Source of the DNA: Bacteroidales bacterium
Lineage (GTDB): Bacteria > Bacteroidota > Bacteroidia > Bacteroidales > P3
Direction: 5' to 3'
NCBI GenBank assembly: GCA_017962615.1
Contig: JAGCUZ010000044.1
Span: 1-47,352 of the forward strand
Length of the DNA: 47,352 nucleotides
The notes below the pieces were generated by a model. The model ran no database searches, was not told where the DNA came from, and worked only from the letters and a program-made list of their open reading frames with translations. The translations under genes and the position numbers were made by a program. This document shows, piece by piece, positions 4,648 to 47,102 of this stretch (the stretch's first letter is position 1; each line of letters opens with the position of its first letter).

Positions 4648-4708
4648 AGATACGATAGATATGATAGATACAATAGAGGTTGGCGCAATTTTAGTTATTA
4701 GTTCGAAG

Positions 4709-4856
4709 AAACTGTTTTGATTTAGGTCGCTTCGCTCAAAATCTTTCAAAATCCTATTCAAAATCTTTCATTTTGTTTGATTTTCTTTTAGATTTTGTTT
4801 GATTTTGAGCCCGAAGGGCGACCATGATAATCTAGACAACAAATTCAAAACAATTT
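4709..4856. mobile_element. MITE-like fold-back element, short copy
   Basis: This 148-bp AT-rich element has ends AAACTGTTTTGA (4709-4720) and, inverted, TCAAAACAATTT (4845-4856), one mismatch apart. Its interior repeats CAAAATCTTTC on the left and GATTTTGTTTG on the right, so it can fold on itself. Next to the ends lie GGTCGCTTCG and, inverted, CGAAGGGCGACC. A longer copy is at 28041-28278; the right-hand 119 bp or so of the two copies differ at only about 3 positions. It encodes nothing. No clear target-site duplication is visible, and the class is inferred from structure alone. Confidence 0.65.
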
Positions 4857-9797: not shown

Positions 9798-9830
9798 AAA
9801 TGTATTTTGTATTGTTTTTATCTGTTTATT

Positions 9831-9931
9831 TGTTGATATGTTTGATGTGGATATGTTGATATGTTTAATGTGGATATTTGATGTGGATTAGGTTCAACTT
9901 ATCAACGTATCAACATATCAACGTATCAACA
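9831..9931. repeat. Duplicated intergenic repeat block between adhesin genes (copy 1)
   Basis: The spacer contains TGTTGATATG and TTTGATGTGGATATG units on its left and the TATCAACR octamers (9900-9931) on its right; the two sides are complementary and can fold together. From 9831 the sequence matches 14400 onwards almost base for base and continues through the 3' end of the adjacent gene to about 10008. Confidence 0.85.
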
Positions 9932-14358: not shown

Positions 14359-14399
14359 GGATGTATTTTGTTTATCTGTGGATATGTTTGATGTGGATA

Positions 14400-14500
14400 T
14401 GTTGATATGTTTGATGTGGATATGTTGATATGTTTAATGTGGATATTTGATGTGGATTAGGTTCAACTTATCAACGTATCAACATATCAACGTATCAACA
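14400..14500. repeat. Duplicated intergenic repeat block between adhesin genes (copy 2)
   Basis: It has the same arrangement as 9831-9931, at a constant offset of 4569 bases: TTTGATGTGGATATG units, then GGATTAGGTTCAACT, then four TATCAACR octamers (14469-14500). The identity runs on into the coding 3' end of the adjacent gene. Just before the next start codon both spacers also share a similar leader ending in ACAAAATACATCC-type sequence. Confidence 0.85.
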
Positions 14501-26175: not shown

Positions 26176-27525
26176 CTAATTGTTAACCCTCCACCTACCG
26201 TTACGGGCACCTCCTTCACGGCTGATAATGCCTTTCTGGCGCAAGGAGGACAACTCTCGCTCAATAGTCCGTTTTTTCCCCGCCATTATTACTGCCATCT
26301 GATTGGCGGTGATTGTTGGATTTTGAATTATTATTTCTATGATTTTTTGCTGTTTCTCAGTCAGTTCAATCACCGCCAAATTACCGCCATTTTCACCGTC
26401 ATTAGCTATGTTGATGTTGACAAATCGTTCTCTCCTTATGGTGGCCATCACGCCACCTCTTACCTGCTCAAAGGTTGGAACCGTAAGCTCTTCCTTGAGA
26501 AAGGCATCGCGTATTTTCTCGTAGCCGCGTCCCCAGCTCTCGATAAAACCAGCCAAGTAGAATACTTTTGCAATGAGGTCGTTGCGGGGATGAGACTCAT
26601 GGCTGGCCATTAGATTCTCCGCCGTTATCTCCGGAGGAAACTCACCGCTGTTCCAGACCTCAATACGATCGTTCCAGACTCGCATTTGGGTGAATGTTCC
26701 CCGATAATCACGATGGACAATGGCGTTGCACACTATCTCACGAAGAGCATCCTCAGGAATTTCCAAAGGTTCAATTCTGCGCAAACCTTCATACTTGACA
26801 GGCGCTACGAGATAACGGCTGCGTAGCACTTGTATCACCTTGTCGGGCATAAGAATAAGTGGGCATACGATATTGTCGTCAAAAAACAGGTCGGCTTGTG
26901 AAGCCCCAAACCTGCCGATGCGGAAAGCTGCCTTGGGGCAATAGTACTCAACATCCTTGCCAAACAGCATCAAGGCTGCAAAGGTGAGACCACCTTGTTT
27001 GTCGAGCAGCCCTAATTTTCGCAAAATCTCCTTTGGAGTTGCATTTCTTGCGCTTTCGTCCAATCTATGGGACTCTACCGCCGCACCAATGAAAAAGCGA
27101 AGTGCATCCGCATCAATGTCATCCAAAGTGGCATCTGGCACAATATGCATATCCCAAGAGCTGTTGGTCTTCCGCAGAAGAAAATCTGTCAGCGAGTTGC
27201 CACTTAACTCTTGCAAAGTGCTGCCACTACGCATATAGTACTTTCCGTTACAGGCAACAGGTTGTTCTGACGGTTTTATGTGTATGGCCACATAGTCTTT
27301 TCCAGCATCTGAGTATAATTCAATATCAGGGACAATGCCCGTGGCCTGAATACACTTGTTCGGCAAGTTCTCCAACAGGTACTTGGCATTGTCAATCCCT
27401 ACCACATTGCCGTTGTCGTCAATGCCGATATAGATGGTGCCGCCTTGGGCGTTGGCGAAGCCGCAAATCCACTTCAGGTATTCATCCTTCCACGACTGCT
27501 TATATTCTATATTCTGAGATTCCAT
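26176..27525 (-). CDS. AlbA_2 (Schlafen-like) ATP-binding transcriptional regulator (449 aa)
   Basis: Residues 1-120 match the AlbA_2 fold: ESQNIEYKQSW at the start, GFANAQGGTIYIGIDDNG, and YYMRSGSTLQEL. A GHKL-type ATPase part follows (IPEDALREIVCNAIVHRDY, then WNSGEFPP). The C-terminus is a winged helix-turn-helix (LTEKQQKIIEII...TANQMAVIMAGKKRTIERELSSL in pieces), so DNA binding is likely. Such proteins are common accessory regulators in Bacteroidetes; their targets are rarely known. It is a single gene with its own promoters and a repeat-rich upstream spacer, which fits acquisition or frequent rearrangement. It could also take part in a defence or stress function, but nothing adjacent supports that. 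Confidence 0.82.
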   Translation of the reverse strand: MESQNIEYKQSWKDEYLKWICGFANAQGGTIYIGIDDNGNVVGIDNAKYLLENLPNKCIQATGIVPDIELYSDAGKDYVAIHIKPSEQPVACNGKYYMRSGSTLQELSGNSLTDFLLRKTNSSWDMHIVPDATLDDIDADALRFFIGAAVESHRLDESARNATPKEILRKLGLLDKQGGLTFAALMLFGKDVEYYCPKAAFRIGRFGASQADLFFDDNIVCPLILMPDKVIQVLRSRYLVAPVKYEGLRRIEPLEIPEDALREIVCNAIVHRDYRGTFTQMRVWNDRIEVWNSGEFPPEITAENLMASHESHPRNDLIAKVFYLAGFIESWGRGYEKIRDAFLKEELTVPTFEQVRGGVMATIRRERFVNINIANDGENGGNLAVIELTEKQQKIIEIIIQNPTITANQMAVIMAGKKRTIERELSSLRQKGIISREGGARNGRWRVNN

Positions 27526-28040: not shown

Positions 28041-28278
28041 AAACTGTTTTGATTTAGGTCGCTTCGCTGACTCGCTATATTTATTTATCAAGCGGTGCTA
28101 TTCGCCATCCATGTTTTTTATTCAGCGGTGCTCATGACCTCAGTTCGCAGGCTTGCCACAAAATCTTTCAAAATCTTATTCAAAATCTTTCATTTTGTTT
28201 GATTTTCTGTTAGATTTTGTTTGATTTTGAGCCCGAAGGGCGACCATGATAATCTAGACAACAAATTCAAAACAGTTT
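28041..28278. mobile_element. MITE-like fold-back element, long copy, inserted into the 3' end of recN
   Basis: The 238-bp element has perfect 12-base terminal inverted repeats AAACTGTTTTGA (28041-28052; inverted at 28267-28278), with GGTCGC and GCGACC next to them. It matches the 148-bp copy at 4709-4856 except for about 90 extra bases after GGTCGCTTCGCT. Its right end overlaps recN and supplies the last seven codons and the TAG stop. Confidence 0.7.
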
Positions 28279-29964: not shown

Positions 29965-30116
29965 TTTTAGTTTTAAGTTATAAGTTCTAAGTTTTTAGTG
30001 GCTGACGCAGCAGTTTTTAGTTATAAATTCTAAGTTTTAAGTGGCTGGCGCAGCAGTTTTTAGTTTTAAGTTGTTAGTTCTAAGTTTTAAGTGGCTGACG
30101 CGTTAGTTTTAAGTGT
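29965..30116. repeat. Three tandem AAGTTCTAAGTTTTAAGTGGCTGACGC units
   Basis: Three imperfect direct repeats of about 45-50 bases, each ending GTGGCTG[AG]CGC, fill the spacer between sufS and recN. A related inverted form is at 23785-23863. No gene or T-tailed terminator is visible. Confidence 0.75.
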
Positions 30117-35529: not shown

Positions 35530-35627
35530 CAACATTTTTCCGATTCACCACCAGAAAAGTGCGAAACTCCCTATTGCACGCTATCCAAGACCAAGCCAGC
35601 CACCCCGAATCAGCCCTCGAAAATATT

Positions 35628-35691
35628 ACTTTTGGGGAATCTATTCCGAAAAAGTCATAACTTTTTTGGAATTAAATCCAAAAAAGTTGTA
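35628..35691 (+). promoter_or_regulatory. Two tandem 32-bp dyad repeats at an AAA_14 ATPase promoter
   Basis: Two adjoining 32-base units (35628-35659 and 35660-35691) agree at 24 positions. Each is a dyad: AACTTTTTTGGA (35659-35670) is the exact inverse of 35677-35688 across six bases, while the first unit pairs CTTTTGGGGAAT imperfectly with ATTCCGAAAAAG. The second unit covers the -33 box and spacer, so a protein bound there would block RNA polymerase. This suggests an operator for autoregulation (inference). Confidence 0.7.
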
Positions 35692-35697
35692 TTTTTG
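35665..35697 (+). promoter_or_regulatory. Promoter TTTG-n21-TATTTTTG for the first AAA_14 ATPase
   Basis: The -33 TTTG is at 35665-35668 and the -7 TATTTTTG at 35690-35697. The spacing fits Bacteroidetes promoters. The leader is about 15 bases to ATG 35718. Confidence 0.7.
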
Positions 35698-35717
35698 CAT
35701 TATAATAATTGCCGATT

Positions 35718-36845
35718 ATGATTAGAAGATACATCTACAAAAAAATTGAGAACAAACTGTTTAAAGGCAAAATTATTATAATTACCGGTGCTCGGCAAGT
35801 TGGAAAAACCACTCTGTTGAAGCAACTGATGAAGGATATGACCAACACGCTGTGGCTAAACGGCGACGAATTACAGGTTCAAAACCTGTTCGGCAACGCC
35901 TCGTCCGACAGGCTGTTGTCGGAGTTCAAAGGCTACAAAGTCGTCATCATCGACGAGGCGCAGCGCATTAGTGACATCGGTCTACGCCTTAAACTGATAG
36001 CCGATTCGGACAGCGACATACAGGTTATAGCCACTGGCAGCTCGGCTTTTGAGCTTGCCAACAAGGTAAACGAGCCCCTCACCGGCCGCAAATGGGAGTA
36101 CCAGATGTATCCGCTGTCGTTTGGCGAGATGGCGGAGCACCACGGCAAGCTGAAGGAACTACGGCTGCTACCACAGCGCATAGTATACGGCTACTATCCC
36201 GAAGTGGTGACGAGCGACGGCAACGAAGTGGAAATACTGAAGCTGCTGACCGACGCATACTTATACAAGGACATACTCTCGTGGGAGAACATAAAGCACC
36301 CTGACAAGCTGCAGACCCTGCTACGCGCACTGGCCTACCAGGTGGGATCGCAGGTGTCGTTCAACGAGCTAAGCCAAATGTGTTCGCTCGACAGCAAGAC
36401 GGTGGAGCGATACATAACCCTACTGGAGCAGTGCTATATAATATTCCGTCTGCCATCATACTCGCGCAACCTGCGTCATGAGCTGAAGTCGAGCCGCAAG
36501 ATATACTTCTACGACAACGGCATACGCAACGCTTTGATTGCCGACTTCAACGCACCCGAGACACGGCAGGATATCGGAGCCCTGTGGGAGAACTTCGTAA
36601 TAGCCGAACGCATGAAAAGCAACGAGTATTACCAGCGTTGGGCTAACCGCTATTTCTGGCGCACAAAACAGCAACAGGAGGTGGATTATATAGAGGAATA
36701 CGACGGCAAACTGCACGCCTACGAGGTGAAGTGGAATCCCAAAACCAAGGCGCGGGTAACAAAGACCTTTACAGCGGCATATCCCGGTAGCGACTTCAAC
36801 GTCATCACCCCTGATAACATCGCTGATTTCCTATTGCCCGACTAG
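35718..36845 (+). CDS. AAA_14/DUF4143 family ATPase (375 aa)
   Basis: The start is ATG 35718 (MIRRYIYKKIENK); an upstream in-frame TTG at 35709 is less likely. Walker A is GARQVGKTTLLK, Walker B is VVIIDEAQRI, followed by VIATGSSAFEL (sensor-like) and the MYPLSFGEM motif of the AAA_14 family. The middle is a winged-helix-like region (SFNELSQMCSLDSKTVERYI), which may bind DNA. The C-terminal DUF4143 part has EVDYIEE...YEVKW, matching a PD-(D/E)xK nuclease-fold core (D...E-x-K). The biochemical role of this family is not established. Its promoter carries two 32-bp dyad repeats, as a different array does for the paralogue at 45685. No partner gene adjoins. Confidence 0.85.
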   Translation: MIRRYIYKKIENKLFKGKIIIITGARQVGKTTLLKQLMKDMTNTLWLNGDELQVQNLFGNASSDRLLSEFKGYKVVIIDEAQRISDIGLRLKLIADSDSDIQVIATGSSAFELANKVNEPLTGRKWEYQMYPLSFGEMAEHHGKLKELRLLPQRIVYGYYPEVVTSDGNEVEILKLLTDAYLYKDILSWENIKHPDKLQTLLRALAYQVGSQVSFNELSQMCSLDSKTVERYITLLEQCYIIFRLPSYSRNLRHELKSSRKIYFYDNGIRNALIADFNAPETRQDIGALWENFVIAERMKSNEYYQRWANRYFWRTKQQQEVDYIEEYDGKLHAYEVKWNPKTKARVTKTFTAAYPGSDFNVITPDNIADFLLPD

Positions 36846-36870
36846 CCACTGTAAAGACACATGAAAAGGA

Positions 36871-36901
36871 AGCGGGACCCGCCCGGAGGACAGGTCCCGC
36901 T
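36871..36901. terminator. Bidirectional terminator between the ATPase gene and gdhA
   Basis: AGCGGGACC (36871-36879) is the exact inverse of 36893-36901, a nine-pair GC-rich stem between convergent genes. The plus side is followed by CTTGTTGTT and the minus side by TCCTTTTC. Confidence 0.75.
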
Positions 36902-36927
36902 CTTGTTGTTATATGCTACTAAGGATA

Positions 36928-38268
36928 TTAGATGATACCCTGGGCGAGCATAGCTTTAGCCACGCGCATGAAACCGGCGATGTTGGCACCCTTGACGTAG
37001 TCAATGGTGTTGCCCTTTTTACCGTATTCAACGCACATGTCATAGATGTCGTTCATAATCTTGTGCAGCTTGACATCGACCTCTTCGGCAGTCCAGTTGA
37101 TGTGACCGGCGTTCTGGCAGATCTCAAGGCCAGAGGTGGCAACACCACCGGCGTTGACAGCCTTACCAGGAGCGAACGGCAGTTTGGCCTTCTGGAAAGC
37201 GGCGATAGCGCCAGGCTGGCAGCCCATGTTCGACACCTCGGCGACGTATTTCACGCCGTTCTTAATAAGCATCTTGGCGTCGTCCTCGCTGAGCTCGTTC
37301 TGGAAAGCGCAGGGCATAGCGATGTCGCACTTGACACTCCAAGCCTTCTTGCCGGCAGTGAACTTGGCCAGTTTCGGGAACTTGGTAGCCATATCCTCAA
37401 CCTTGTTGCGGTTGGAGGCACGCATATCGAGCATGTAGTCGATCATCTCTTTGGTGATGCCGTCCTTGATCTCGCAGACACCGTCGGGACCGGAGATAGC
37501 AACGACCTTGGCACCCATCTCAACAGCCTTGGTGGCAGCGCCCCAAGCGACATTGCCGAAGCCAGAGAGAGCGATCTTCTTGCCCTTCATGTTCTCTTTT
37601 TTCTGCTTCACCATGCGCTCGACATAGTACATGGCGCCGAAACCTGTAGCCTCGGGACGGATGAGGGAACCACCCCAGCCGTAGCTCTTGCCGGTGAGGG
37701 CACCGGTGCTGTGCTCGCGGGCGAGTTTCTTGTAAGCACCATAGAGGTAACCAATCTCGCGGCCACCAACTCCGACGTCGCCAGCGGGGCTGTCCTGATC
37801 GGGACCGATGTTGCGCCACAGCTCATACATGAAAGCCTGGCAGAAGCGCATGATTTCGGCATCGCTCTTTCCTGTGGGGTCGAAATCGGCACCACCCTTA
37901 CCACCGCCGAGAGGCAGGTTGGTGAGGCTGTTCTTGAAAATCTGCTCGAAGCCTAATAACTTCAGCATGGAGACGTTGACAGCGGGATGGAAGCGGAGAC
38001 CGCCTTTGTATGCGCCGAGGGCGGCGTTGAACTGCACGCGGTAGCCCAAGTTGGTGCAAACTTCACCCTTATCGTTGACCCAAGTCACGCGGAAAGTGAA
38101 GATACGATCGGGTTCGACAAGACGCTCAATGATTTTGGCTTTCTCGAACTCGGGATGCTCGTTGTAAACTTTCTCAATGGAGACCAGGACCTCTTCGACG
38201 GCCTGCAAATACTCTTTTTCACCAGGATGTTTGGCTTCAAGAGTCTTCATGATTTCTTTTACCTTCAT
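36928..38268 (-). CDS. gdhA: NADP-type glutamate dehydrogenase
   Basis: At 446 residues it has the length of hexameric NADP-dependent enzymes. Motifs: GAYKGGLRFHP (substrate lysine near 88), PLGGGKGGADFDP with the catalytic Lys at 124, GDVGVGGREIGYLYG, TGFGAMYYVE, and the dinucleotide fold GFGNVAWGAATKA. It converts 2-oxoglutarate and ammonium to glutamate, a main ammonium-assimilation route in gut Bacteroidales. It is monocistronic, with a -7 box about 46 bases upstream and a bidirectional terminator downstream. Confidence 0.95.
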   Translation of the reverse strand: MKVKEIMKTLEAKHPGEKEYLQAVEEVLVSIEKVYNEHPEFEKAKIIERLVEPDRIFTFRVTWVNDKGEVCTNLGYRVQFNAALGAYKGGLRFHPAVNVSMLKLLGFEQIFKNSLTNLPLGGGKGGADFDPTGKSDAEIMRFCQAFMYELWRNIGPDQDSPAGDVGVGGREIGYLYGAYKKLAREHSTGALTGKSYGWGGSLIRPEATGFGAMYYVERMVKQKKENMKGKKIALSGFGNVAWGAATKAVEMGAKVVAISGPDGVCEIKDGITKEMIDYMLDMRASNRNKVEDMATKFPKLAKFTAGKKAWSVKCDIAMPCAFQNELSEDDAKMLIKNGVKYVAEVSNMGCQPGAIAAFQKAKLPFAPGKAVNAGGVATSGLEICQNAGHINWTAEEVDVKLHKIMNDIYDMCVEYGKKGNTIDYVKGANIAGFMRVAKAMLAQGII

Positions 38269-38313
38269 GATATTTAATGTTTTGAGTTAAAGTATGTATT
38301 TAATTTTGGTCAA

Positions 38314-38321
38314 CAAATGTA
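38314..38321 (-). promoter_or_regulatory. -7 box TACATTTG for gdhA
   Basis: The minus strand reads TTGTACATTTGTTGACC, matching TAnnTTTG, 46 bases before ATG 38268. The remaining spacer to 38468 is AT-rich, and I see nothing else in it. Confidence 0.6.
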
Positions 38322-38468
38322 CAACTATTTTTTGATACTGCGCAAGTTTTTTTATATTTTTTGCGTTTTTCGGCAAAATATTTTTGCACAGCCTGTTCAT
38401 AGCTGCATTAATCAGAGTCGTTCTTGATGCGCAAAAAACGTGCTCCACACCGCCACAAACCACGGGTT

Positions 38469-39281
38469 CTACCCTTGGAAACATGTAGAGATGAAGTTGT
38501 AGAGGCGGGGCTTTAGGTATTCGCGTGCCTCGATGTGCGCCATGTGGGCCACGTTGGAGAGAAGTAACAGCTCGGGATTACGGGCTTCGAGGGCCTGCGA
38601 GATGCCCAACTCGACGGGCAGACGTACGTCGTTCTTGCCGTACACGCAGAGCACCGGCGCGTCGAGGCTGCGCAACACATGCAGGCGCGACGGGCGCTGC
38701 AGCATGCCTTTCTGCGCCGCCAGAGCACCTTGCTGCGAGGTTTCGAGAGCCAGCTCCTGCACGGCGTGTATATCGTGCGAGAGGAACCGCAGGCTCTGAG
38801 TATCGAAAAGGGTCTGTATGAACGAAAGGATATAGCCCGGCATGTTGGACGCCATCTGCTTGCAGGCCTCCTCACGCTTCTGCATGGTCTGCTCGTCGTC
38901 GGCCATGGCGTGGGAATGCAGCAGCACCAGCCCCCGCATCAGATAGGGATAGGCCTCGGCAAAAGCCAGCGACACGTAGCCGCCCATCGAATGCCCCACC
39001 ATCACACAGTCGCTGACTCCCAAGTCGTCGAGGACTGCCTTCACGGCACGCGCCATGAAGTCCATCGTATGCACATCGGCGTAGTTGTCGCTGAATCCAT
39101 GACCTGGCAGGTCGATGGCTATCACTCGCTTGGAATGCATATAGCTCAACATGTAGGATGCCCACACGTCGAGGTTCTGCATATATCCGTGCAGAAACAC
39201 TACCGTGCCAAGATTTTCACGTCCTTCGTCGCGATAATGTATCTTTCGGCCTTGGAATATCAATGTCTTGTGCTGCTCCAT
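38469..39281 (-). CDS. Alpha/beta hydrolase (270 aa)
   Basis: It shows the alpha/beta hydrolase fold: FLHGYMQN (oxyanion HG, residues 31-32), IDLPGHGFSD, the nucleophile elbow GHSMGG with Ser98, a late Asp in VYGKNDVRLP, and a His in NVAHMAHIE. It has no signal peptide, so it is cytoplasmic. The closest general type is the MenH/BioH/esterase group; the substrate cannot be told from the sequence. It has its own -7 box and no operon partner. Confidence 0.85.
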   Translation of the reverse strand: MEQHKTLIFQGRKIHYRDEGRENLGTVVFLHGYMQNLDVWASYMLSYMHSKRVIAIDLPGHGFSDNYADVHTMDFMARAVKAVLDDLGVSDCVMVGHSMGGYVSLAFAEAYPYLMRGLVLLHSHAMADDEQTMQKREEACKQMASNMPGYILSFIQTLFDTQSLRFLSHDIHAVQELALETSQQGALAAQKGMLQRPSRLHVLRSLDAPVLCVYGKNDVRLPVELGISQALEARNPELLLLSNVAHMAHIEAREYLKPRLYNFISTCFQG

Positions 39282-39301
39282 GTTATACTACAATTGTGAG
39301 G

Positions 39302-39309
39302 CAAAAGTA
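39302..39309 (-). promoter_or_regulatory. -7 box TACTTTTG for the alpha/beta hydrolase
   Basis: The minus strand reads ATGTACTTTTGCCTC, a match to TAnnTTTG about 20 bases before ATG 39281. Confidence 0.6.
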
Positions 39310-39522
39310 CATCTTTTTTTATAAACAGGGCCGATTGTTTTTAAAAAGTAATACTCAGCATATTGTTAATAAGAGGCAGCACTCCAGCATGTACCAACGA
39401 TTCAGTGGTGTAGCCGCCCATACGCGAAAGAGCCTCGCAACAGCTTACTTTATTCTCCGCTTCGCTATCGTGCTGCGGCTGCCGACCTTGTGGAGGCATA
39501 ATCCACTGGACTTTCCGTTTTG

Positions 39523-39602
39523 TTCTCCGCTGCGCTATCGAAAGTCCACAGGACTTTCTTCATTCTCCGCTGCGCTATCGAAAGTCCACAGGACTTTCTT
39601 CA
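39523..39602 (-). repeat. Perfect tandem duplicate of a 40-bp hairpin repeat
   Basis: Units 39523-39562 and 39563-39602 are identical. Each contains GAAAGTCC-TGT-GGACTTTC (a hairpin on the minus strand) followed by GATAGCGCAGCGGAGAA. A third partial unit begins at 39453, and a deleted copy lies at 27981-28011. The unit nearer the gene supplies the last codons of the PorE-like gene. The rest of the 39282-39574 spacer holds no gene. Confidence 0.85.
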
Positions 39603-42391
39603 TCCTTATAGAATCTGAGCATCACGTCGGCCTGCGGGGCACGCTGGGCCTTGTAGTGCACGTTGCCGTAGGCCGACACCGACACTGCCGAGGCCGGCAC
39701 GCCCTGCCCTGTGAGGGCTTTCTTGAGCTCCCGTCCACGGTCGAGGCTGAGGCTGTAGCACTGCGTGTCGTCTGAGCCCTGCACGTTGACCATAAACTCG
39801 ACCTTGAGACCAGCGTTGCGCGAGAGGAACTCGGCCAGCATGGTGAGGCAGCGCGACGAATAGGGTAACAGGCTGCGCGAGTCGTCGGCGAAGCCTACGC
39901 CGTACATGGGTATCACCACCGAGTCTTTCACCAGCTCGTTGGCCATATAGCCTTTGACGAACACCGTGCTGTTGCCATCGGGCGTTATAGCCAAAACGGG
40001 TACATATAGCGTGCCTGCGGTGGCATATACGAGGTAAGCCTTGTCTTTGTGGATGCTTGCCGACAGCGGCTTCGAGAAGTCGTCGACCATGAAGTTGTAG
40101 CGCATCAGCTGCGCGTCGCGGTCGACGATGTCGACCTGCGCAAGCGGTGTCTTGTCGTGTAGCGACGCCAGCACCACGGTGGCCATCCTGTAAAAGCTGG
40201 CCGACGCGGGTGTGAGACCCACGCTGCGGCACGCGTAGTTGCCGCCGTGGACGGAGGCCGACACAAAGAGTTTGCGCTCGTCGTCCGACAGCGACACCGA
40301 CGCCTCGTTGAAGGCGGTGTTGACATCGCGTCCCATATTGACCGGAGCCGACCACGTGGTCCAGCTGCTAACGTCGGGACGCCGCGCCACATAGATGTCG
40401 CCGTAGCCCAGTCCCTGCGCGTCGGTGATGAAATACAAGGTACGCATATCGCGGCTGAGCACTGGGCTGCGTTCGCTGTATGGCGTGTTGACCGCCAGTC
40501 CCAGGTTTACAGCCTCTCCCCAGCCGTAGTCGGTGCGCGGCACGAAGTAGAGGTCGGTGGCCAAAGCCGTGTCGCCGTGGAAATAGGCTCCCGACCGCTG
40601 ATAATTGTGCCCTCCTGGACGGTCGGAGGCCAGCAGTATGCCTGTACCGTCGGGCAACATGAAAGCATCGGTCTCTATGTAATCGCTGTTCACGGGGAAT
40701 GGCGGCACCTCGGCAATACGCCACTGGCCGTCCTGCTCGAGCTGGGCTATGACGATGTCGCCGTTCTGTCCCAGCAGCATCTTCGTTCCCTCTTCATATA
40801 TTCCGTAAAACATGAGGCCGTTGTTCTCGGTGTTCAAGAACGCCACAGGTCCAGCATAACGCCAGCCGCCTTTCCCCGACTGCTCGCTGAAACACACGGT
40901 GCACTTGCCGTCGGGGTCGCGGCGCGTGTAGTACAGCCGCTTGCCGTCGGGCGAGGGGGCGGGATGCAGCACGTCGAAGGCGGTGGACGTCAGCTCCGAC
41001 ACCACTGCCTTCACCTTCTCCGAAGGGGTGAGCAGCAGCGCGCGCAGGTCCTCGTACAGGTCGTTGTATTGGTCTTCAAACACCAGGCCGCTATGCTGCA
41101 TCTGGTCGACGGCACGCTTCCAGTTGCGTGCCTCTATGAAAGGCTGCAGGGTGCGCTGCAACGCCACGTACGAGACCCTCATGCCGGTAAGCATGCGCGT
41201 GTACTCTTCGTACTGCGGCACGTCGCGTTCGGCAACCTTGCGCAACAGGTCTATCGTGTCGGCACGCATGGCCCGGACCATGTCCTCGTCAACCTTCACC
41301 ATGAAGGGGCAGTCGGGATGCGCGGCCTTGAAGGCCCGTATCGGCGCACCGTTGCCCTCGTCGGAGTGCCACTGATAGCTCTGACGGTAGATGCTGCCGT
41401 AGGCGCTGTCGAGCGGGAATTCCTCCATGTATATCTTCAACGCCGCCATATTCCTGTCCTTGACAATCATAGAGCGCAGACGGTCCACGGCCAGTTCCGA
41501 CAGGGTGTTGTCGCTGTTGCGCAGGGCAAAGTCGGCGTACTGCCTGGGGGTCTTCAGGGCTGCAAACTCCACTTCGAGCAGCGACTCCATCTTGTCGATA
41601 GCCTCCACATACTCGTCGCTCATAGGATATTTCGTCAGGAAGTCCCTGTAGGCCGCCACGGTGTGCTTCGCCGAGGCGTCGGCATAAGCCATGCGGCTCT
41701 TGTACTTGCCCGCCATGGTCATTATGTACTGGCAGTCGCTGTAGGGCGCCACCATCGAGTCGATGACGGCCACGTCGGTGATGTCGGCAAACTGCTGCGA
41801 CATTATCTTGTTAATCTCTGCCTCGGCGTACTCTGCGCCCGAGGTGCCGCCGTGCTTCTTGAGGAAATAGTAATAGCCTGCCAGCGAGTTGGCCTGCCGC
41901 GCCATGTCGAAAGCCTGCATGTAGCGGTGACGTTCCACCTCGCGCATAATGATGGCGTCGGACGAGAACACCTCCTTAAAGAGGTTTATCTCCGACTCGG
42001 GCAGCGTGTTGTTACCTGCCACATACACGCGGGTCTCCTCTATGATGCTCTGCTTCTTCTGGCGCACCGCCGCAAGGGTGATTTTGTTGCGTATCAGGCG
42101 GCTCACCTCTTTGTAGCGGTCCCTGTCGTCGATCATCGCCACGTAGTTCTTCTCGGCCTTCTGCACGTAACGCATGGCCATGGGCAGGTTGCGCATGGGG
42201 TTGTTAGTGCTCGAATAGAACTCGGCCATAGCCATCAGGTTGGCCACGTCGTCGGGATTCTGCGCATAGGCCTTGTACACGCGGGCGTACTGCATGCGGT
42301 AGTATTCGGCATAATTGGTGTCTTTTTGCTCCTGGGCAATCAAAAGATTACTCGCAAGCAGCAGCAGTACCAATGTCAGCGGAAACCTCAT
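39575..42391 (-). CDS. TPR/PD40/OmpA-like envelope protein, resembling T9SS PorE (938 aa)
   Basis: A signal peptide (MRFPLTLVLLLLASNLLIAQ) without a lipobox Cys is followed by a helical part of about 430 residues, then PD40/WD40-like beta-propeller repeats (HPAPSPDGKRLYYTRRD, FMLPDGTGILLASDRPGG, SPVLSRDMRTLYFITDA, ASVSLSDDERKLFVSA). Next comes a carboxypeptidase-regulatory-like stretch, and last an OmpA-C-type domain (LTMLAEFLSRN..., LSLDRGRELKKALTGQGV). This order matches PorE and similar Bacteroidetes proteins that tie the T9SS to peptidoglycan. The OmpA motif is diverged, so peptidoglycan binding is not certain, and PorE itself is a predicted lipoprotein whereas this one seems not to be. 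The last eight residues (EESPVDFR) and the TAG stop come from the 40-bp repeat. It is last in the tRNA-yitT-glycosyltransferase run, five bases after the small exported gene. Confidence 0.78.
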   Translation of the reverse strand: MRFPLTLVLLLLASNLLIAQEQKDTNYAEYYRMQYARVYKAYAQNPDDVANLMAMAEFYSSTNNPMRNLPMAMRYVQKAEKNYVAMIDDRDRYKEVSRLIRNKITLAAVRQKKQSIIEETRVYVAGNNTLPESEINLFKEVFSSDAIIMREVERHRYMQAFDMARQANSLAGYYYFLKKHGGTSGAEYAEAEINKIMSQQFADITDVAVIDSMVAPYSDCQYIMTMAGKYKSRMAYADASAKHTVAAYRDFLTKYPMSDEYVEAIDKMESLLEVEFAALKTPRQYADFALRNSDNTLSELAVDRLRSMIVKDRNMAALKIYMEEFPLDSAYGSIYRQSYQWHSDEGNGAPIRAFKAAHPDCPFMVKVDEDMVRAMRADTIDLLRKVAERDVPQYEEYTRMLTGMRVSYVALQRTLQPFIEARNWKRAVDQMQHSGLVFEDQYNDLYEDLRALLLTPSEKVKAVVSELTSTAFDVLHPAPSPDGKRLYYTRRDPDGKCTVCFSEQSGKGGWRYAGPVAFLNTENNGLMFYGIYEEGTKMLLGQNGDIVIAQLEQDGQWRIAEVPPFPVNSDYIETDAFMLPDGTGILLASDRPGGHNYQRSGAYFHGDTALATDLYFVPRTDYGWGEAVNLGLAVNTPYSERSPVLSRDMRTLYFITDAQGLGYGDIYVARRPDVSSWTTWSAPVNMGRDVNTAFNEASVSLSDDERKLFVSASVHGGNYACRSVGLTPASASFYRMATVVLASLHDKTPLAQVDIVDRDAQLMRYNFMVDDFSKPLSASIHKDKAYLVYATAGTLYVPVLAITPDGNSTVFVKGYMANELVKDSVVIPMYGVGFADDSRSLLPYSSRCLTMLAEFLSRNAGLKVEFMVNVQGSDDTQCYSLSLDRGRELKKALTGQGVPASAVSVSAYGNVHYKAQRAPQADVMLRFYKDEESPVDFR

Positions 42392-42396
42392 CGCAG

Positions 42397-42927
42397 TTAT
42401 TTCTCAATTTCTATGGTGTCCAATATGTCGTCGAACATTTCCCTGAAGGCGCCGAAAGTGTCGGTCGTCGTCTCCAGGCGGAACTCTATTGCCGTCTTCT
42501 TCACTTTGAAGTACAGCATCTTGAAGCGGTAGTCCTTGGTATCGTTGCCGCTTGTATAGGCTCCGTCGTAGGCCAAAGCCTCGTCCACCACAAGTCCTTC
42601 GTCATACTCGCGCAAGGCCTGGAAAGGCTGCTGCAGGTAGCGCTCGTAGGCCAGCTCGTACACGCTGCCGGGATAGTTGCGCTTTACATATATCCTAAGG
42701 AACGGCAGCACAGTGTCGCCCATCTCGTCAACCACTGCCGTCCCCCCGTAGGCATACAGGTACACCGTGGTGTTCTTGTCAACATTGGTGGTCTGCAAAT
42801 ACTTCCATCCGCCATCCGGGAAACTGAAGGTCACGCCCGTGCCCGGCACTTTCACCTGTGCCTGCGCCGCCCATGCCATCATGGTCAGCAGCGCTATGGC
42901 CGCCATTCTCCGTACTGCTCTGTTCAT
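42397..42927 (-). CDS. Small exported protein of unknown function (176 aa)
   Basis: The start is ATG 42927 (MNRAVRRMAAIALLTMMAWAAQAQ), giving a signal peptide cut after AQA; the frame is open to a TTG at 42939, which is not needed. The mature protein of about 150 residues mixes beta strands (GVTFSFPDGGWKYLQT) with a helical C-terminus (FREMFDDILDTIEIEK). I recognise no family. It sits five bases upstream of the PorE-like gene, so it is likely to act with it in the periplasm (inference). Confidence 0.75.
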   Translation of the reverse strand: MNRAVRRMAAIALLTMMAWAAQAQVKVPGTGVTFSFPDGGWKYLQTTNVDKNTTVYLYAYGGTAVVDEMGDTVLPFLRIYVKRNYPGSVYELAYERYLQQPFQALREYDEGLVVDEALAYDGAYTSGNDTKDYRFKMLYFKVKKTAIEFRLETTTDTFGAFREMFDDILDTIEIEK

Positions 42928-42999
42928 ATTTTCTGACAATCTTTCTTTGTTTATACTGCCAACCTAACGCCGGGATTGATGTTTTATTGTGCACAGCCG

Positions 43000-44190
43000 C
43001 TACAATTGCCCATAAAAATCCAGCAGCTGCCCCGTCAGCCTCTCGTTGTCGTACCGCTCCGCTATAAGGTCGAAAGCCTTGCGTCCTATGGCCTTGCATC
43101 TCTCGGGCTGCTCTATGCACAGGCGTATCTTCTCCACAAACTGCTCCGGCGTGTCGGCTATCAATAGGTCCTCGCCGTCGGTGTAGTCTATGCCCTCGGC
43201 TGCCACCGTGGTGGCCACCACGGTCTTGCCAAGCGACATGGCCTCTATTATCTTAACCCTTATGCCGCTGCCCGACAGGAGCGGCACCACGTTGATCTGC
43301 TTGCCGCTCATGAAATAGCCGGCGTCGGGCACCTCGCCCACCACCGTCACGCCGTCCGTCTTCAGCTCCATCAGCTTCTTGGGCATCTTGCGCCCGGCAA
43401 GGTACAGCTTAGCCTGCGGCACTGCGGCGTGCAGCATGGGCCACACCTCGCGCAGAAACCATTGCACCCCTTCCACGTTGGGCATCCAGTCCATGGAGCC
43501 TATGTGGAACAGCGTGCACGGCTCTTCCTCCACATTCTCCGCCAGTTCCGGCGTCACTATGCCGAACGGCATGGCCATCACAGGCTTCGTTGCGCCCATT
43601 GCCTTGTATATGTCGGCGTCGTGCCGGGTAATGCACACTATGCCGTCGAAGTCGCCCAAGTGCGCCCTCTCGTAGCGTTCCAGTGCCGCCGCAAGCTTGC
43701 CCAGGTACCACCTCTTCAGCGGATTGCGGGCATACTCAGCCCTGCGGCGCCATATCCTGTACTCCACGTTGTGGGCGCGCAGCACCACCTTGGCATCGCT
43801 GCACTGCCTTATAACGGGCACATACGGCGTCAGGAAAAGGCTCTCCAGGTGCACCACGTCGTAGTGCTCCTCCGCAAGCAGCTCTCTCAGCCTGTCGGCA
43901 AACGCTTTGCTCTCGAAGCGTGCCACGTTGTATGACTTGCCTCTCAGCAACGCCCACAGCGCAGGCAGCGGCCGCACACGCAGGTCTACCTCCACTGCAT
44001 CGAAGCGCGTCGCCGCCTTGTATTCCTCGGTCATTCTGCGCGCCTGCACGGGGTGCTTCTTCGAGCACATCGACAGCACCCTAACCTCGCAGTCCTGCGA
44101 CAGCAGTCCCTGCGTAACGCTGTTCATGGCCAAGCTTCCCCCGTCAACCGGCGGATACGGAGGCTTGATGGTAAGCTGGAGTACCTTCAT
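43000..44190 (-). CDS. GT-B glycosyltransferase, family 4 type (396 aa)
   Basis: The N-terminal Rossmann part has KPPYPPVDGGSLAMNSV, a typical acceptor-side loop, and HLESLFLTPYV. The C-terminal donor domain has GSMDWMPNVEGVQWFL, YLAGRKMP, and GSGIRVKIIEAMSLGKTVVAT, the EX7E-region motif of retaining GT4 enzymes. It should transfer a sugar from a nucleotide sugar to an envelope glycan acceptor. The donor and acceptor are unknown. It starts 18 bases after yitT, and 72 bases separate it from the small exported gene. Since T9SS cargo is anchored to a lipopolysaccharide in some Bacteroidetes, a link to the PorE-like gene in the same run is possible but unproven. Confidence 0.88.
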   Translation of the reverse strand: MKVLQLTIKPPYPPVDGGSLAMNSVTQGLLSQDCEVRVLSMCSKKHPVQARRMTEEYKAATRFDAVEVDLRVRPLPALWALLRGKSYNVARFESKAFADRLRELLAEEHYDVVHLESLFLTPYVPVIRQCSDAKVVLRAHNVEYRIWRRRAEYARNPLKRWYLGKLAAALERYERAHLGDFDGIVCITRHDADIYKAMGATKPVMAMPFGIVTPELAENVEEEPCTLFHIGSMDWMPNVEGVQWFLREVWPMLHAAVPQAKLYLAGRKMPKKLMELKTDGVTVVGEVPDAGYFMSGKQINVVPLLSGSGIRVKIIEAMSLGKTVVATTVAAEGIDYTDGEDLLIADTPEQFVEKIRLCIEQPERCKAIGRKAFDLIAERYDNERLTGQLLDFYGQL

Positions 44191-44208
44191 ATTGCACCGG
44201 ACATCGTG

Positions 44209-45159
44209 CTACTCCTCGGGCAGCGCGCGGAAGCCCTCGCCCAGTATCTCCGAGCTGTCGACAATATTCACAAAAGCATTGGGGTCTAACCGTTTCAGGT
44301 TGCTTTTCAGCTTCACCATGTCGGCACGCTCAAGGGTGACGTATATCATCTTGCGCTCGTTACCCTTGTACAGGCCTGTGCCCACCAGCAGGGTGCCGCC
44401 GCGCTCCAGGTCGTTCAAGATATAGCTGCGCACCGCCTCCAGCTCGTCGGTGACGATAAACATGGTCTTGTAGCTCTTCATGCCGTCCACCACCAGGTCG
44501 ATAATCTTGCTCTCTATGAAGATGAGGATGATAGAGTATATCGGGAGGCGTATGTCTTTGAAAGCGGTGAGGGTGGTCAGCGAGATGATGCTGTCGACGA
44601 TAAGCACCAACGTGCCGAGACTTATCTTGGTGTATTTGTGGATAATCATGCTTATGATGTCCGAGCCGCCGCTCGTGGCACCGGCACGGAAGATCACGCC
44701 GATGGCCACGCCGTAGATGATGCCCGCCACCACGGTGTTCAAGAAGAAGTCGGGCACAAACCCTTTCAGGTACTCGCCCTCCTCAATGTAGAAGTCCACA
44801 TTGGGGTTAGCCTCGAAGAACCCTCGGTTATAGTCGTAGATTACAGGGTCGTAGCCCCACGTGATTTCGAGCAGGTAGGTGAACACGGGTATCAGTATCA
44901 CCGACACCACAGTCTTCACGCCGAACTTTGGGCCCAGTATGAGTGTGCCGATAATCAGCAGCGGTATGTCCATGCAGACGCCCGCCAACGAAATCTTCCA
45001 TCCCCACAAGGCGTTGAACACGTTGGCCAAGCCGTACACGCCGCCAGGCGCCAGGTGATAGGGATTGACAAACATAACGTCGCCAACAGCGAACAAGGCG
45101 CTGCCGAGCACCACCAAAAAATAGGACCACACTTGGTCCTTTATACTACTTTTCTTCAT
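44209..45159 (-). CDS. YitT family membrane protein (DUF161/DUF2179, 316 aa)
   Basis: Hydrophobic segments span about residues 12-215, with VNPYHLAPGGVYGLANVF and GATSGGSDIISMIIHKYT, the repeated glycine motifs of the family. The cytoplasmic C-terminus (MKSYKTMFIVTDELEAV...NAFVNIVDSSEILG) is the DUF2179 domain. The transport substrate is not established for the family. The ATG at 45159 lies only six bases beyond the 3' end of a tRNA gene on the same strand. After tRNA processing the messenger would therefore have almost no leader. No other in-frame start is near (next Met at about residue 26). Confidence 0.88.
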   Translation of the reverse strand: MKKSSIKDQVWSYFLVVLGSALFAVGDVMFVNPYHLAPGGVYGLANVFNALWGWKISLAGVCMDIPLLIIGTLILGPKFGVKTVVSVILIPVFTYLLEITWGYDPVIYDYNRGFFEANPNVDFYIEEGEYLKGFVPDFFLNTVVAGIIYGVAIGVIFRAGATSGGSDIISMIIHKYTKISLGTLVLIVDSIISLTTLTAFKDIRLPIYSIILIFIESKIIDLVVDGMKSYKTMFIVTDELEAVRSYILNDLERGGTLLVGTGLYKGNERKMIYVTLERADMVKLKSNLKRLDPNAFVNIVDSSEILGEGFRALPEE

Positions 45160-45165
45160 AGGATG

Positions 45166-45238
45166 AGCGACAGACGGGGCTCGAACCCGCGACCTGCGGC
45201 TTGGGAAGCCGCCGCTCTGCCAACTGAGCTACTGTCGC
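45166..45238 (-). tRNA. tRNA-Gly (anticodon CCC)
   Basis: A 73-base cloverleaf reads on the minus strand: acceptor GCGACAG/CTGTCGC, D-arm GCTCAGTTGGCAGAGC, anticodon stem GCGGC/GCCGC with loop TTCCCAA (anticodon CCC), T-arm GCGGGTTCGAGCCCCGT, and discriminator U. No CCA is encoded. It is the first element of the minus-strand run that continues into yitT six bases later. Confidence 0.95.
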
Positions 45239-45460
45239 ATTTACAACAAACGTCCCCTATAAAACTTCAAAGCATAAGTTTTATTGTGTCATATCATAAA
45301 AAAAAATCAAAACAGGCATTATCACCCTATCCACCAACACCTTACAACAATCCCAAACGCATCTCGCCATCAACACAACAACACATCTGCGTACATATCA
45401 ACCAATTATAATGGACAACACTGGTACAATTCACAAAACAACATCGCGAATAAAATCGTG
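45239..45460. other. Gene-free AT-rich spacer
   Basis: It is rich in A and C (CAACACC, AACACAACAACAC). No gene, promoter box or hairpin stands out apart from the upstream side of the tRNA gene. Confidence 0.5.
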
Positions 45461-45620
45461 AAAATCGGGAGTACTACTCTGTATTTTCATGGAAAATCGG
45501 GAGTACCACTCCGTAAAATACAAGAATCCCCACCGCATTCCCTCATAAAAATGTAGTCCGTGGCAATTATTCCCTCATAAAAATGTATTCTATAACAAAC
45601 ATTCCCTCATAAAAATGTAT
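45461..45620 (+). repeat. Five 32-bp-period units upstream of an AAA_14 ATPase gene
   Basis: AAAATCGGGAGTAC occurs at 45461 and 45493. ATTCCCTCATAAAAATGTA occurs at 45537, 45569 and 45601. All spacings within each set are exactly 32 bases. In the first two units the sequence after GG is the small dyad GAGTA-C-TACTC or GAGT-ACC-ACTC. The array ends just before the -33 box at 45627. Read on the other strand the last three units contain ACATTTTTATGAGGG, resembling ACATTTTCTACGAGG in the array at 47007-47102. Likely a multi-site operator. Confidence 0.8.
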
Positions 45621-45626
45621 TTTTTC

Positions 45627-45658
45627 TTGTATTATTCGATAATAAATTTGTAACTTTG
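45627..45658 (+). promoter_or_regulatory. Promoter TTG-n21-TAACTTTG for the second AAA_14 ATPase
   Basis: The -33 TTG is at 45627-45629 and the -7 TAACTTTG at 45651-45658, with about 26 bases to ATG 45685. The 32-bp array abuts its upstream side. Confidence 0.7.
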
Positions 45659-45684
45659 CAAAAACAAAACATCACACAGCGCAA

Positions 45685-47004
45685 ATGGATAGACTGATTT
45701 ACACCAAGTTACTGAAATGGAAGAATTCAGAATACCGCAAACCTCTCATCCTTTTGGGTGCAAGACAGGTTGGCAAGACATATATTCTCAACCAATTCGG
45801 CCGACAGGAATTCGACACACTGGTGTACATTAACTGCCACAACAACGCTTTTGCCGAATCATTGTTTCGCGATTTCGACATGAACCGCATCCTGTATGAC
45901 ATCGAACAGCAGTATGAGCAACACATAGTTGCCGGTAAAACGCTGCTCGTCTTCGACGAAATACAGGAGGTTCACAACGGCATCTCGTCGCTCAAATATT
46001 TCTGCGAAGAATGCCGGGACCTGCATGTTGCCGTGGCTGGCTCACTGCTGGGCATATCGTTGCGCGAAGACGAGAGCTACCCCGTGGGCAAGGTCGACAC
46101 CCTCAGGATGTACCCCATGACATTCACCGAGTTTCTACTTGCATGCAACAGGAAGAACCTCTGCAACAGTCTTGATGGCTGCCTATGGGAAAACCTTACC
46201 ACATCACACGAAACCCTAACCGACCTACTGCGGCAATATTACTTCTGCGGAGGCATGCCCGAAGCGGTGCAGGCCTGGGTCGAGAGCCGCGACGCCCGCT
46301 GGGTGCGGCAGATACAATTGGAAATACTTGATGCCTACGAACGCGACATTGCCAAGCACACCTCCGTGATGGCCGGACGCATACACCAAGTGTGGAGCAG
46401 CATCCCCGCACAGCTGGCCAAGGAGAACAAGAAATTCATCTTCGGCATGGTCAAGAAAGGGGCAAGAGCCGCCGAATACGAGCTGGCACTGCAGTGGCTG
46501 GCAGATGCGGGGCTGGTCTATCGCGTGGAGCGCTGCAAATCGGCGCAGTTGCCGCTCAAGTTCTACGCCGACAGCTCCGCGTTCAAAATATATCTGCTCG
46601 ACGTTGGCCTCCTGGCTGCGATGACCGAGACAGAGCCCAAAGACATACTGCTGGGCAGCAAGGCGTTCAGCGAATTCAAGGGAGCCTTCTCCGAAAACTA
46701 CGCGCTGGAACAGATAAAAACCATAGGCAATATCGGCGTGTATTACTACAGCAAAGACAACTCACAGTTGGAGATAGACTTCCTTCTGCAATGCGCAGGC
46801 CGTGTTATCCCCACTGAAGTGAAAGCCGAAGAGAATGTAAAGAGCAAGTCACTGCACACCTTTGTCCAGACCAACCAGCCCGGCATGAAAGGCTTGCGCG
46901 TGTCGATGAAGCCATATACAAAACAAGAGTGGATGGAAAACATCCCCCTCTACGGAGTGGAGAGCTACCTGAAAAAGCAATGCTCCGATATTATGACCGA
47001 ATAA
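45685..47004 (+). CDS. AAA_14/DUF4143 family ATPase (439 aa)
   Basis: ATG 45685 starts MDRLIYTKLLKWK. Walker A is GARQVGKTYIL, Walker B LLVFDEIQEV, then VAVAGSLLGISL and the family motif LRMYPMTFTEFL. The middle has FCGGMPEAVQAW and an alpha-helical region. The C-terminal DUF4143 part has LEIDFLLQCAGRVIPTEVKAE, in pieces a PD-(D/E)xK-like core (D...E-V-K). It is a distant paralogue of the gene at 35718. The biochemical role is not established; a nuclease-linked ATPase is a reasonable reading. It stands alone, flanked upstream (45461-45620) and directly downstream (47007-47102) by 32-bp-period repeats. That bracketing suggests it binds its own flanks or is part of a small selfish element (inference). 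Confidence 0.86.
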   Translation: MDRLIYTKLLKWKNSEYRKPLILLGARQVGKTYILNQFGRQEFDTLVYINCHNNAFAESLFRDFDMNRILYDIEQQYEQHIVAGKTLLVFDEIQEVHNGISSLKYFCEECRDLHVAVAGSLLGISLREDESYPVGKVDTLRMYPMTFTEFLLACNRKNLCNSLDGCLWENLTTSHETLTDLLRQYYFCGGMPEAVQAWVESRDARWVRQIQLEILDAYERDIAKHTSVMAGRIHQVWSSIPAQLAKENKKFIFGMVKKGARAAEYELALQWLADAGLVYRVERCKSAQLPLKFYADSSAFKIYLLDVGLLAAMTETEPKDILLGSKAFSEFKGAFSENYALEQIKTIGNIGVYYYSKDNSQLEIDFLLQCAGRVIPTEVKAEENVKSKSLHTFVQTNQPGMKGLRVSMKPYTKQEWMENIPLYGVESYLKKQCSDIMTE

Positions 47005-47006
47005 AA

Positions 47007-47102
47007 TGACACTTTTTGCGAGGTTTCAGGAAGCAAATTGACATTTTCTACGAGGTTTCGGGAGGTAGATTGACACTTTTTACGAGTTACAAGCATCCGG
47101 CA
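47007..47102 (+). repeat. Three 32-bp-period units directly after the AAA_14 ATPase stop
   Basis: Units start TGACA at 47007, 47039 and 47071, exactly 32 bases apart. The first two share CGAGGTTTC-[AG]-GGA and the third keeps TGACACTTTTTACGAG. The array starts two bases after the stop codon. Its motif ACATTTTCTACGAGG matches, in opposite orientation, the last units of the upstream array. Confidence 0.82.

Follow-up and report, generated by a model that had tools for sequence, protein, structure and literature searches.

The stretch of DNA analysed here (the window; 47,352 nucleotides [nt]) is the entire contig JAGCUZ010000044.1 of the Bacteroidales genome GCA_017962615.1 (contig C14 of genome G000, 67% complete) and carries two genes of the AAA_14/DUF4143 ATPase family, each flanked by short tandem repeats. 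Gene 1 (35718..36845, plus strand; product P0001) and gene 2 (45685..47004, plus strand; product P0002) both encode an AAA_14 ATPase domain, a putative winged helix and a DUF4143 domain, which we take to be of the PD-(D/E)xK type. The Pfam models AAA_14 (PF13173) and DUF4143 (PF13635) passed their curated cut-offs in this order in both proteins, with 109.9 and 152.2 bits in P0001 and 98.8 and 119.0 bits in P0002. The PADLOC PDC-S01 models likewise matched both window proteins (E values of 6e-167 and 8e-168). AAA_14/DUF4143 proteins are a very common, little-studied family, represented in PADLOC by the candidate defence system PDC-S01. Residue numbers of P0001 are counted from an upstream TTG at 35709.

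A preliminary description of the window had reported three arrays with a unit of exactly 32 bases. This spacing was confirmed at 35625-35688 (array 1), 45460-45515 (array 2a), 45534-45619 (array 2b) and 47003-47098 (array 3), the stretch from 45461 to 45620 being two different sub-arrays in tandem. Each piece was subjected to 300 dinucleotide shuffles that were scored at lags of 15 to 69; the highest shuffled scores (14, 10, 14 and 14) stayed below the observed lag-32 scores of the four pieces (18, 20, 39 and 32). The arrays had also been described as exclusive to these places within the window; in a scan for the best lag of each intergenic piece (score of at least 14), lag 32 was indeed best only there, while the other pieces gave best lags of 22, 23, 43, 68 and 70.

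Array 1, the putative operator of gene 1 (35625..35696, plus strand), consists of two palindromic units 32 bp apart that are 75% alike, with dyads at 35641/35642 and 35673/35674. A -7-type box, TATTTTTG (35690..35697, plus strand), lies 16 bp beyond the proximal dyad. With up to 3 mismatches, the array 1 sequence was found in G000 only at its own locus and in a 40-bp array on contig C26. Upstream of gene 2, array 2a (45460..45515, plus strand) has two imperfect palindromic units with a 24-nt core, 32 bp apart and unlike array 2b in sequence. Array 2b (45534..45652, plus strand) has three ATTCCCTCATAAAAATGTA units with a 22-nt core at exactly 32 bp and a degenerate fourth unit 33 bp further, and is followed by the -7-type box of gene 2, TAACTTTG (45651..45658, plus strand). 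Among the three good copies of array 2b, similarity to the reference copy is 86 to 100% for the cores and 69 to 78% for the full 32-nt units; conserved cores at constant spacing with drifting spacers are not the pattern expected of a recent duplication. The unit matched just its own three copies in G000 among the matches listed (up to 3 mismatches). A sequence resembling array 2a was noticed by eye upstream of a 163-residue family open reading frame (ORF) at locus L053, and gene 2 may be under the control of two family members.

Array 3 (47003..47098, minus strand) comprises three 32-bp units, begins within the stop codon of gene 2 and is apparently an inverted P0002-type operator. Its minus-strand core, about CCTCGTAAAAAGTGT, resembles the array 2 core, CCCTCATAAAAATGTA, in a by-eye comparison, and array 3 therefore looks like an inverted relative of array 2. 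In the sister genome G028, the array 3 unit is found ahead of a short sequence similar to residues 1 to 20 of P0002 (50% identity, E value of 0.13). The notion that array 3 serves a gene past the contig end was unsupported, as the array, reversed, matches the G028 array before the P0002-like start. A second match, in genome G104, has no array and is probably due to chance.

The preliminary description had proposed a search for the same periodicity beside other members of the family. Of 21 genomes searched, namely that of the window and 20 relatives, 19 contain DUF4143 matches. G000 alone has 15, 12 of them above the family cut-off, and arrays precede most of its family genes, with a different sequence for each. 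A period of 32 or 33 was found upstream of eight of the 15 (L002, L004, L005, L008, L011, L012, L013 and L014), a period of 23 before L009 and before L006, where seven complete copies and one partial copy are present, and a period of 52 before L015; no clear tandem array was seen upstream of L001, L003, L007 and L010. The full sample was drawn from G000 and the loci of its relatives, including 40 stretches taken in match-list order, and leans to strong DUF4143 scores. Duplicates and short intergenic spaces were excluded, as were 63 controls that shared the intergenic space of a target or lay next to it (within 700 bp); the final set comprised 75 family genes and 111 controls. The top lag was 32 or 33 at a score of at least 14 before 31/75 family genes versus 0/111 controls, and 23 before 10/75 versus 0/111. 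Scores of at least 14 at any lag were obtained for 52/75 family genes and 14/111 controls (shuffle expectation, about 1 each), and scores of at least 30 for 19/75 and 0/111. Controls with apparent 32-bp arrays were mostly divergent neighbours within the target's own intergenic region and were discarded.

Another expanded family, SLFN_AlbA_2 (30 loci, 29 usable), reached a score of at least 14 in 3/29 genes, and lags of 32/33 or 23 in none of the 29. The SLFN_AlbA_2 gene of the window itself (27205-27522, minus strand), which was among the controls, has no 32-bp array (best lag 22, score 13). Across 1.74 Mb of loci, 46 of 47 strong lag-32 segments lay at most 400 bp from a family ORF, L084 being the exception, as did 16 of 19 lag-33 segments (one inside an ORF; L139 and L287 far away) and 9 of 10 lag-23 segments (one inside an ORF); these proximities are indicative only, since the loci were picked around family genes.

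Variation of the repeats with protein clade had been named as a result that would support the proposal, and the period was clustered on the protein tree. Among 72 proteins, the 32/33 label required 16 changes compared with 23.3 after shuffling (1/500 as low), and the 22-24 label required 8 compared with 12.3 (0/500 as low). The P0001 clade had period 32/33 in 17 of 25 genes, while another clade had 22-24 in 7 of 8. In the P0002 clade, for which spacing and core conservation were considered and in which 21 of the 40 genes come from one genus, the best lag was 32 or 33 in 31/40 genes, 19 of these at a score of at least 14. Among the best 80 P0001 relatives from named genomes among the matches listed, 79 had enough upstream DNA; 42 of these had clear arrays, 39 of the 42 at period 32/33, and Bacteroidota accounted for such arrays in 35 of 56 genes. 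Three plasmid-borne relatives, kept outside these counts, comprised two with lag 32/33 (scores of 24 and 16) and one without an array. Cores were conserved and spacers variable both within arrays and between orthologues.

The unit of the P0001 clade is a palindrome of about TTTnnnGAWTNNAWTCnnnAAA (104 genes). Operator positions were numbered outward from the dyad, position 5 being the C after AWT. For 71 genes whose site was good and whose protein was of sufficient length, 16 operator positions were compared with 378 residues by mutual information, with shuffle and background correction. The highest-ranking pair was position 6 with K230 (z of 13.5), followed by position 13 with K320 (9.6), position 5 with D228 (9.6) and position 7 with S229 (5.6). 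In these training genes, K230 occurred with C in 34/34 cases, N230 with A in 6/6, I230 with A in 5/5, E230 with G in 5/5, Q230 with G in 4/4, D228 with C in 57/58, K/R229 with C in 17/17 and K/R320 with G in 16/19. Because the first site model had learnt these bases, the site search was redone with positions 4-8 and 13 masked; K230-C (31/31) and D228-C (51/51) held in the training genes.

The associations were then assessed on 49 further loci, which gave 48 unused genes whose products are 48 to 87% identical to the nearest training protein. With the masked search, 28/48 had an operator above the 95% level of shuffled sequence. Among these, C was found with D228 in 14/14 cases versus 1/14 without D (Fisher test, P = 7.5e-7) and with K230 in 6/6 versus 1/22 (P = 1.9e-5), A with N/I230 in 8/9 versus 1/19 (P = 2.5e-5) and G with K/R320 in 5/5 versus 1/23 (P = 6e-5). 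Residues were pooled as N/I, E/Q and K/R in these tests, N and I having been pooled afterwards. In independent pairs taken from a quick tree built without the recognition columns, the mean numbers of same and opposite changes were 9.0 and 0 for K230 (median P = 0.004), 8.4 and 0 for D228 (0.008), 10.0 and 0 for K/R320 (0.002) and 6.4 and 0 for N/I230 (0.03). As read from sequence comparison, the validated code of the P0001 clade would thus have three parts: C at position 5 goes with D228; position 6 is C with K230 and A with N230 or I230; and G at position 13 goes with K320 or R320, a residue beside the active site of nuclease type. The rules for residue 229 and for E/Q230 were dropped, being unvalidated both on unused genes and in independent pairs.

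The AlphaFold2 model of P0001, made from proteins alone (mean predicted local distance difference test score, 90.3), has helices at 198-210, 218-225 and 229-241, followed by strands, which we read as a winged helix with 229-241 as the putative recognition helix. The codons of D228, S229 and K230 (36390..36398, plus strand) encode the N-terminal end of this helix, residue 229 being unvalidated. Residue 320 (codon at 36666..36668, plus strand), which covaries with operator position 13, is located in a loop of the nuclease-like domain, four residues before E324. For P0002, the predicted recognition helix spans 260-274, and segment 247-258 is of low confidence. In the P0001 clade, G32/K33 are present in 149/149 ungapped rows and D82 in 152/152, presumably as Walker-type motifs. 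The residues E324 (147/148), D326 (148/148), E339 (148/148) and K341 (145/148), presumably a PD-(D/E)xK-type motif, are conserved to a similar degree and add to our reading of the domain; nuclease-type residues are conserved across both the P0001 and the P0002 clades. A sequence search of solved structures yielded no convincing relative (best E values, 0.79 and 0.13). In a fold search of solved structures, 2fna ranked 1, 2qen ranked 3 and Cdc6/Orc1 on origin DNA (2qby) ranked 10, and the list also held clamp loaders, STAND proteins and ORC/Cdc6.

TAnnTTTG is the promoter consensus of Bacteroidota. In a survey of 67 P0001-clade genes from Bacteroidota or the window's relatives, this box was located downstream of the proximal dyad in 55 (2.1 expected when the stretch beyond 16 nt was shuffled) and was lacking in 12. 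Its offset from the proximal dyad was most commonly +16 (22 of the 55 genes) and between +15 and +19 in 38; in 10 of the 55 it lay at +46 to +49. The operator thus covers the promoter spacer, which is the geometry of a repressor. This overlap lends sequence-based support to autoregulation, one of the roles that the preliminary description had suggested.

Operators were also searched for independently of the genes. The sequence TTTTTGGAAYNNATTCCAAAAA, with at most 1 mismatch, was present in 30 of 99 genomes of the genus, with no match for the reversed control. One locus per genome was examined (30 of about 36 listed; L325 and L339 had already been in the first set). A family ORF was found within 600 bp in 19/30, to which a homology search added L338 clearly and L348 weakly. 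Among the proteins, D-x-K was present in 13 of the 14 triplets found by pattern and in 16 of 17 readable triplets overall. The same GGAAT-type core accompanies three members of a distant subfamily with about 25% identity to P0001. All three carry D-V-K, and in two of them the operator units are 40 bp apart. By eye, L335 and L343 have, around position 1500, a P0001-type two-unit operator and a TAnnTTTG-type promoter before non-DUF4143 genes. In L335 the operator is followed by an oxidoreductase-like ORF, in L343 by a short one; these cases may reflect promoter capture or control in trans.

The 40-bp array of G000 (C26, 12513-12657; about 4514-4658 of locus L289) comprises four P0001-type palindromes with no adjoining family gene. 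It was dropped as a counter-example, as the same layout precedes the distant D-V-K subfamily in two other genomes; on the same grounds it is probably an operator left behind after gene loss. At the gene 1 locus, the neighbours, which we take to be aroQ and gdhA, adjoin without a P0001 gene in 8/29 relatives' loci, where no such operator was seen by eye. Gene 1 and its array, as judged from these loci, travel together. Several other relatives have a different gene of about 240 residues between the same neighbours. At the one locus inspected, the junctions showed neither terminal repeats nor target duplications by eye.

Taken together, family genes with arrays are very probably one-gene autoregulatory cassettes, in which the protein binds its own promoter and represses itself. 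The winged helix would read a private operator of its own gene, whose copies lie at a fixed spacing. In most arrays examined this spacing is 32/33 bp, equal to about 3 helical turns, but one clade uses 23 bp and another 40 bp. AAA+ protomers would then line up as a regular oligomer that covers the -33/-7 region of the promoter and silences the gene, and repression would be released possibly by a change in ATP state or by phage infection. We read the resting state as an autorepressing oligomer. As nuclease-type residues are conserved, a nuclease may sit on its own operator; residue 320, which tracks base 13, is four positions away from E324, so that the nuclease-like domain probably rests on the operator too. 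That each protein binds its own array, as had been proposed at the outset, has strong support in the P0001 clade: operator bases covary with recognition residues, the associations predicted bases for unused genes, and independent pairs on the tree agree. The existence of arrays and operators without a gene speaks against the strict form of this proposal.

Several observations weigh against this reading. Gene-less arrays or operators include array 3, the C26 array and 9/30 operator-first loci, which have no family gene within up to 1.5 kb on each side; L335 and L343 place the operator before other genes, and at L323 the protein has T-S-I although its operator is of the GGAAT type. Furthermore, 23/75 family genes have no array at score 14, and 20/48 unused genes have no operator above the shuffle threshold. 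Outside Bacteroidota or among unassigned records, clear 32/33 arrays were few (4/23 of the best 80 set), found in a Termititenax, a Verrucomicrobia, a Coxiellaceae and a Saccharibacteria record. The E/Q230-G rule failed on unused genes (2/5, P = 0.57; independent pairs, 4.5 same and 0.1 opposite, P = 0.125), and K/R229-C was not significant (14/19 versus 3/9, P = 0.095; 5.7 same and 2.0 opposite, P = 0.29). One helical turn is 10.5 bp. The 23- and 40-bp spacings fall about 2 bp off whole turns, so that the phasing argument is best for 32/33. Lastly, the protein may activate its own promoter instead of repressing it.

It is also conceivable, albeit rather unlikely, that the protein binds its array mainly to place the PD-(D/E)xK-like domain and to cut or nick DNA in defence, gene drive or mobility, with autorepression being secondary. 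The retention of E324, D326, E339 and K341 in 145 to 148 of 148 rows, the covariation of residue 320 with base 13, the eight relatives' loci in which the gene 1 neighbours adjoin with neither gene nor array and the PDC-S01 matches of P0001 and P0002 would all fit such a function. However, arrays persist beside the gene in the genomes examined, the one insertion examined showed no terminal repeats or target duplications by eye, and regulation alone accounts for the promoter overlap. More speculatively, and in our estimate improbably, an armed AAA+ nuclease oligomer on its own promoter would serve as silencer, store and trip-wire at once, with an active-site-side residue reading the operator and a simple recognition-helix code separating paralogues.

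Three further explanations are less likely still. A separate host regulator could bind the arrays and would explain the operators without a family gene in reach at 9/30 operator-first loci; yet the units differ between paralogues and their bases track residues of the adjacent protein, which makes this quite improbable. Type III toxin-antitoxin pairs neutralise the toxin by means of a tandem-repeat RNA encoded ahead of the toxin gene, and 32- to 40-bp tandem repeats directly upstream of a gene for a nuclease-fold protein recall that arrangement. As the TAnnTTTG box is downstream of the last dyad in 55/67 P0001-clade genes, however, the main transcript would not carry the array, and the units are DNA palindromes that covary with a DNA-recognition helix; action as RNA is thus very hard to credit. 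Functionless tandem duplication or slippage, or repeats for phase variation, would be consistent with the variable copy number between the orthologues L004 and L061, but duplication should leave identical spacers, whereas here spacers have diverged while cores and spacing are held. Identical spacing moreover recurs with unrelated sequences, and the units covary with the protein, so that we give this account almost no weight.

Compared with known systems, the window proteins match both the PDC-S01 profile and the two Pfam domains, AAA_14 and DUF4143. The archaeal AAA+ ATPases Sso1545 (2fna) and PABY2304 (2qen) are among the top fold matches of the P0001 model, at 14 to 16% identity, and ORC/Cdc6 initiators bind repeated sites; P0001 differs from these in carrying DUF4143 and in having its sites in its own promoter rather than at an origin. 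In restriction-modification C proteins and toxin-antitoxin repressors, a DNA-binding protein holds down the gene of a potentially harmful effector. The palindromic or repeated operators at the protein's own promoter are a shared trait, while here DNA reading, the AAA+ ATPase and the nuclease-like domain are combined in one polypeptide. The likeness to type III toxin-antitoxin systems is restricted to tandem repeats upstream of a nuclease gene, as the family arrays are located upstream of the promoter or across it, and their bases covary with the DNA-recognition helix. PDC-S01 is named in PMC12988326 and PMC13356809. A search of literature listings, with most subscription journals and all bioRxiv preprints outside its scope, pointed to no operator array, autoregulation or DNA-reading code for PDC-S01/DUF4143.

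Other repeats are present in the window. A perfect 23-bp inverted repeat with the core AAGGAGTTGGTnnnACCAACTCCTT lies at the contig end (47304-47352); with up to 3 mismatches, this core has 83 occurrences in the 2.0-Mb genome and 0 for the reversed control, and it is a candidate for a dispersed palindromic element or shared terminator. Arrays of 23 and 16 bp (TGTTGATATGTTTGATGTGGATA; TCAACATATCAACGTA) at 1022-1055, 9823-9931 and 14361-14500 recur beside or between very large minus-strand ORFs of 1231 to 1858 amino acids, and near-alike stretches of repeats and inverted repeats (CAAAATCTTTCAAAATCTTATTC...) at 4736-4806 and 28159-28228 are each near a large minus-strand ORF. Repeats of 43 bp (AGTTTTAAGTTCTAAG...GGCTGACGCAGCAGT) are located between ORFs at 29965-30114, and a perfect 40-bp tandem repeat in two copies at 39523-39603.

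For the AAA_14/DUF4143 family, these results provide an entry point: they name a DNA ligand, predict how it would be bound, relate residues to bases in a partial code and suggest a likely role in regulation. The operator also offers a means of spotting cassettes without their gene. As recognition residues and operators change together, paralogues could coexist with little cross-talk, which offers an explanation for a dozen or more family copies in one genome. The question is also raised why a conserved nuclease-like site should lie on the gene's own operator. If the trip-wire arrangement were true, stripping of the oligomer by phage DNA, replication or a change in ATP state would release the nuclease and derepress its gene.

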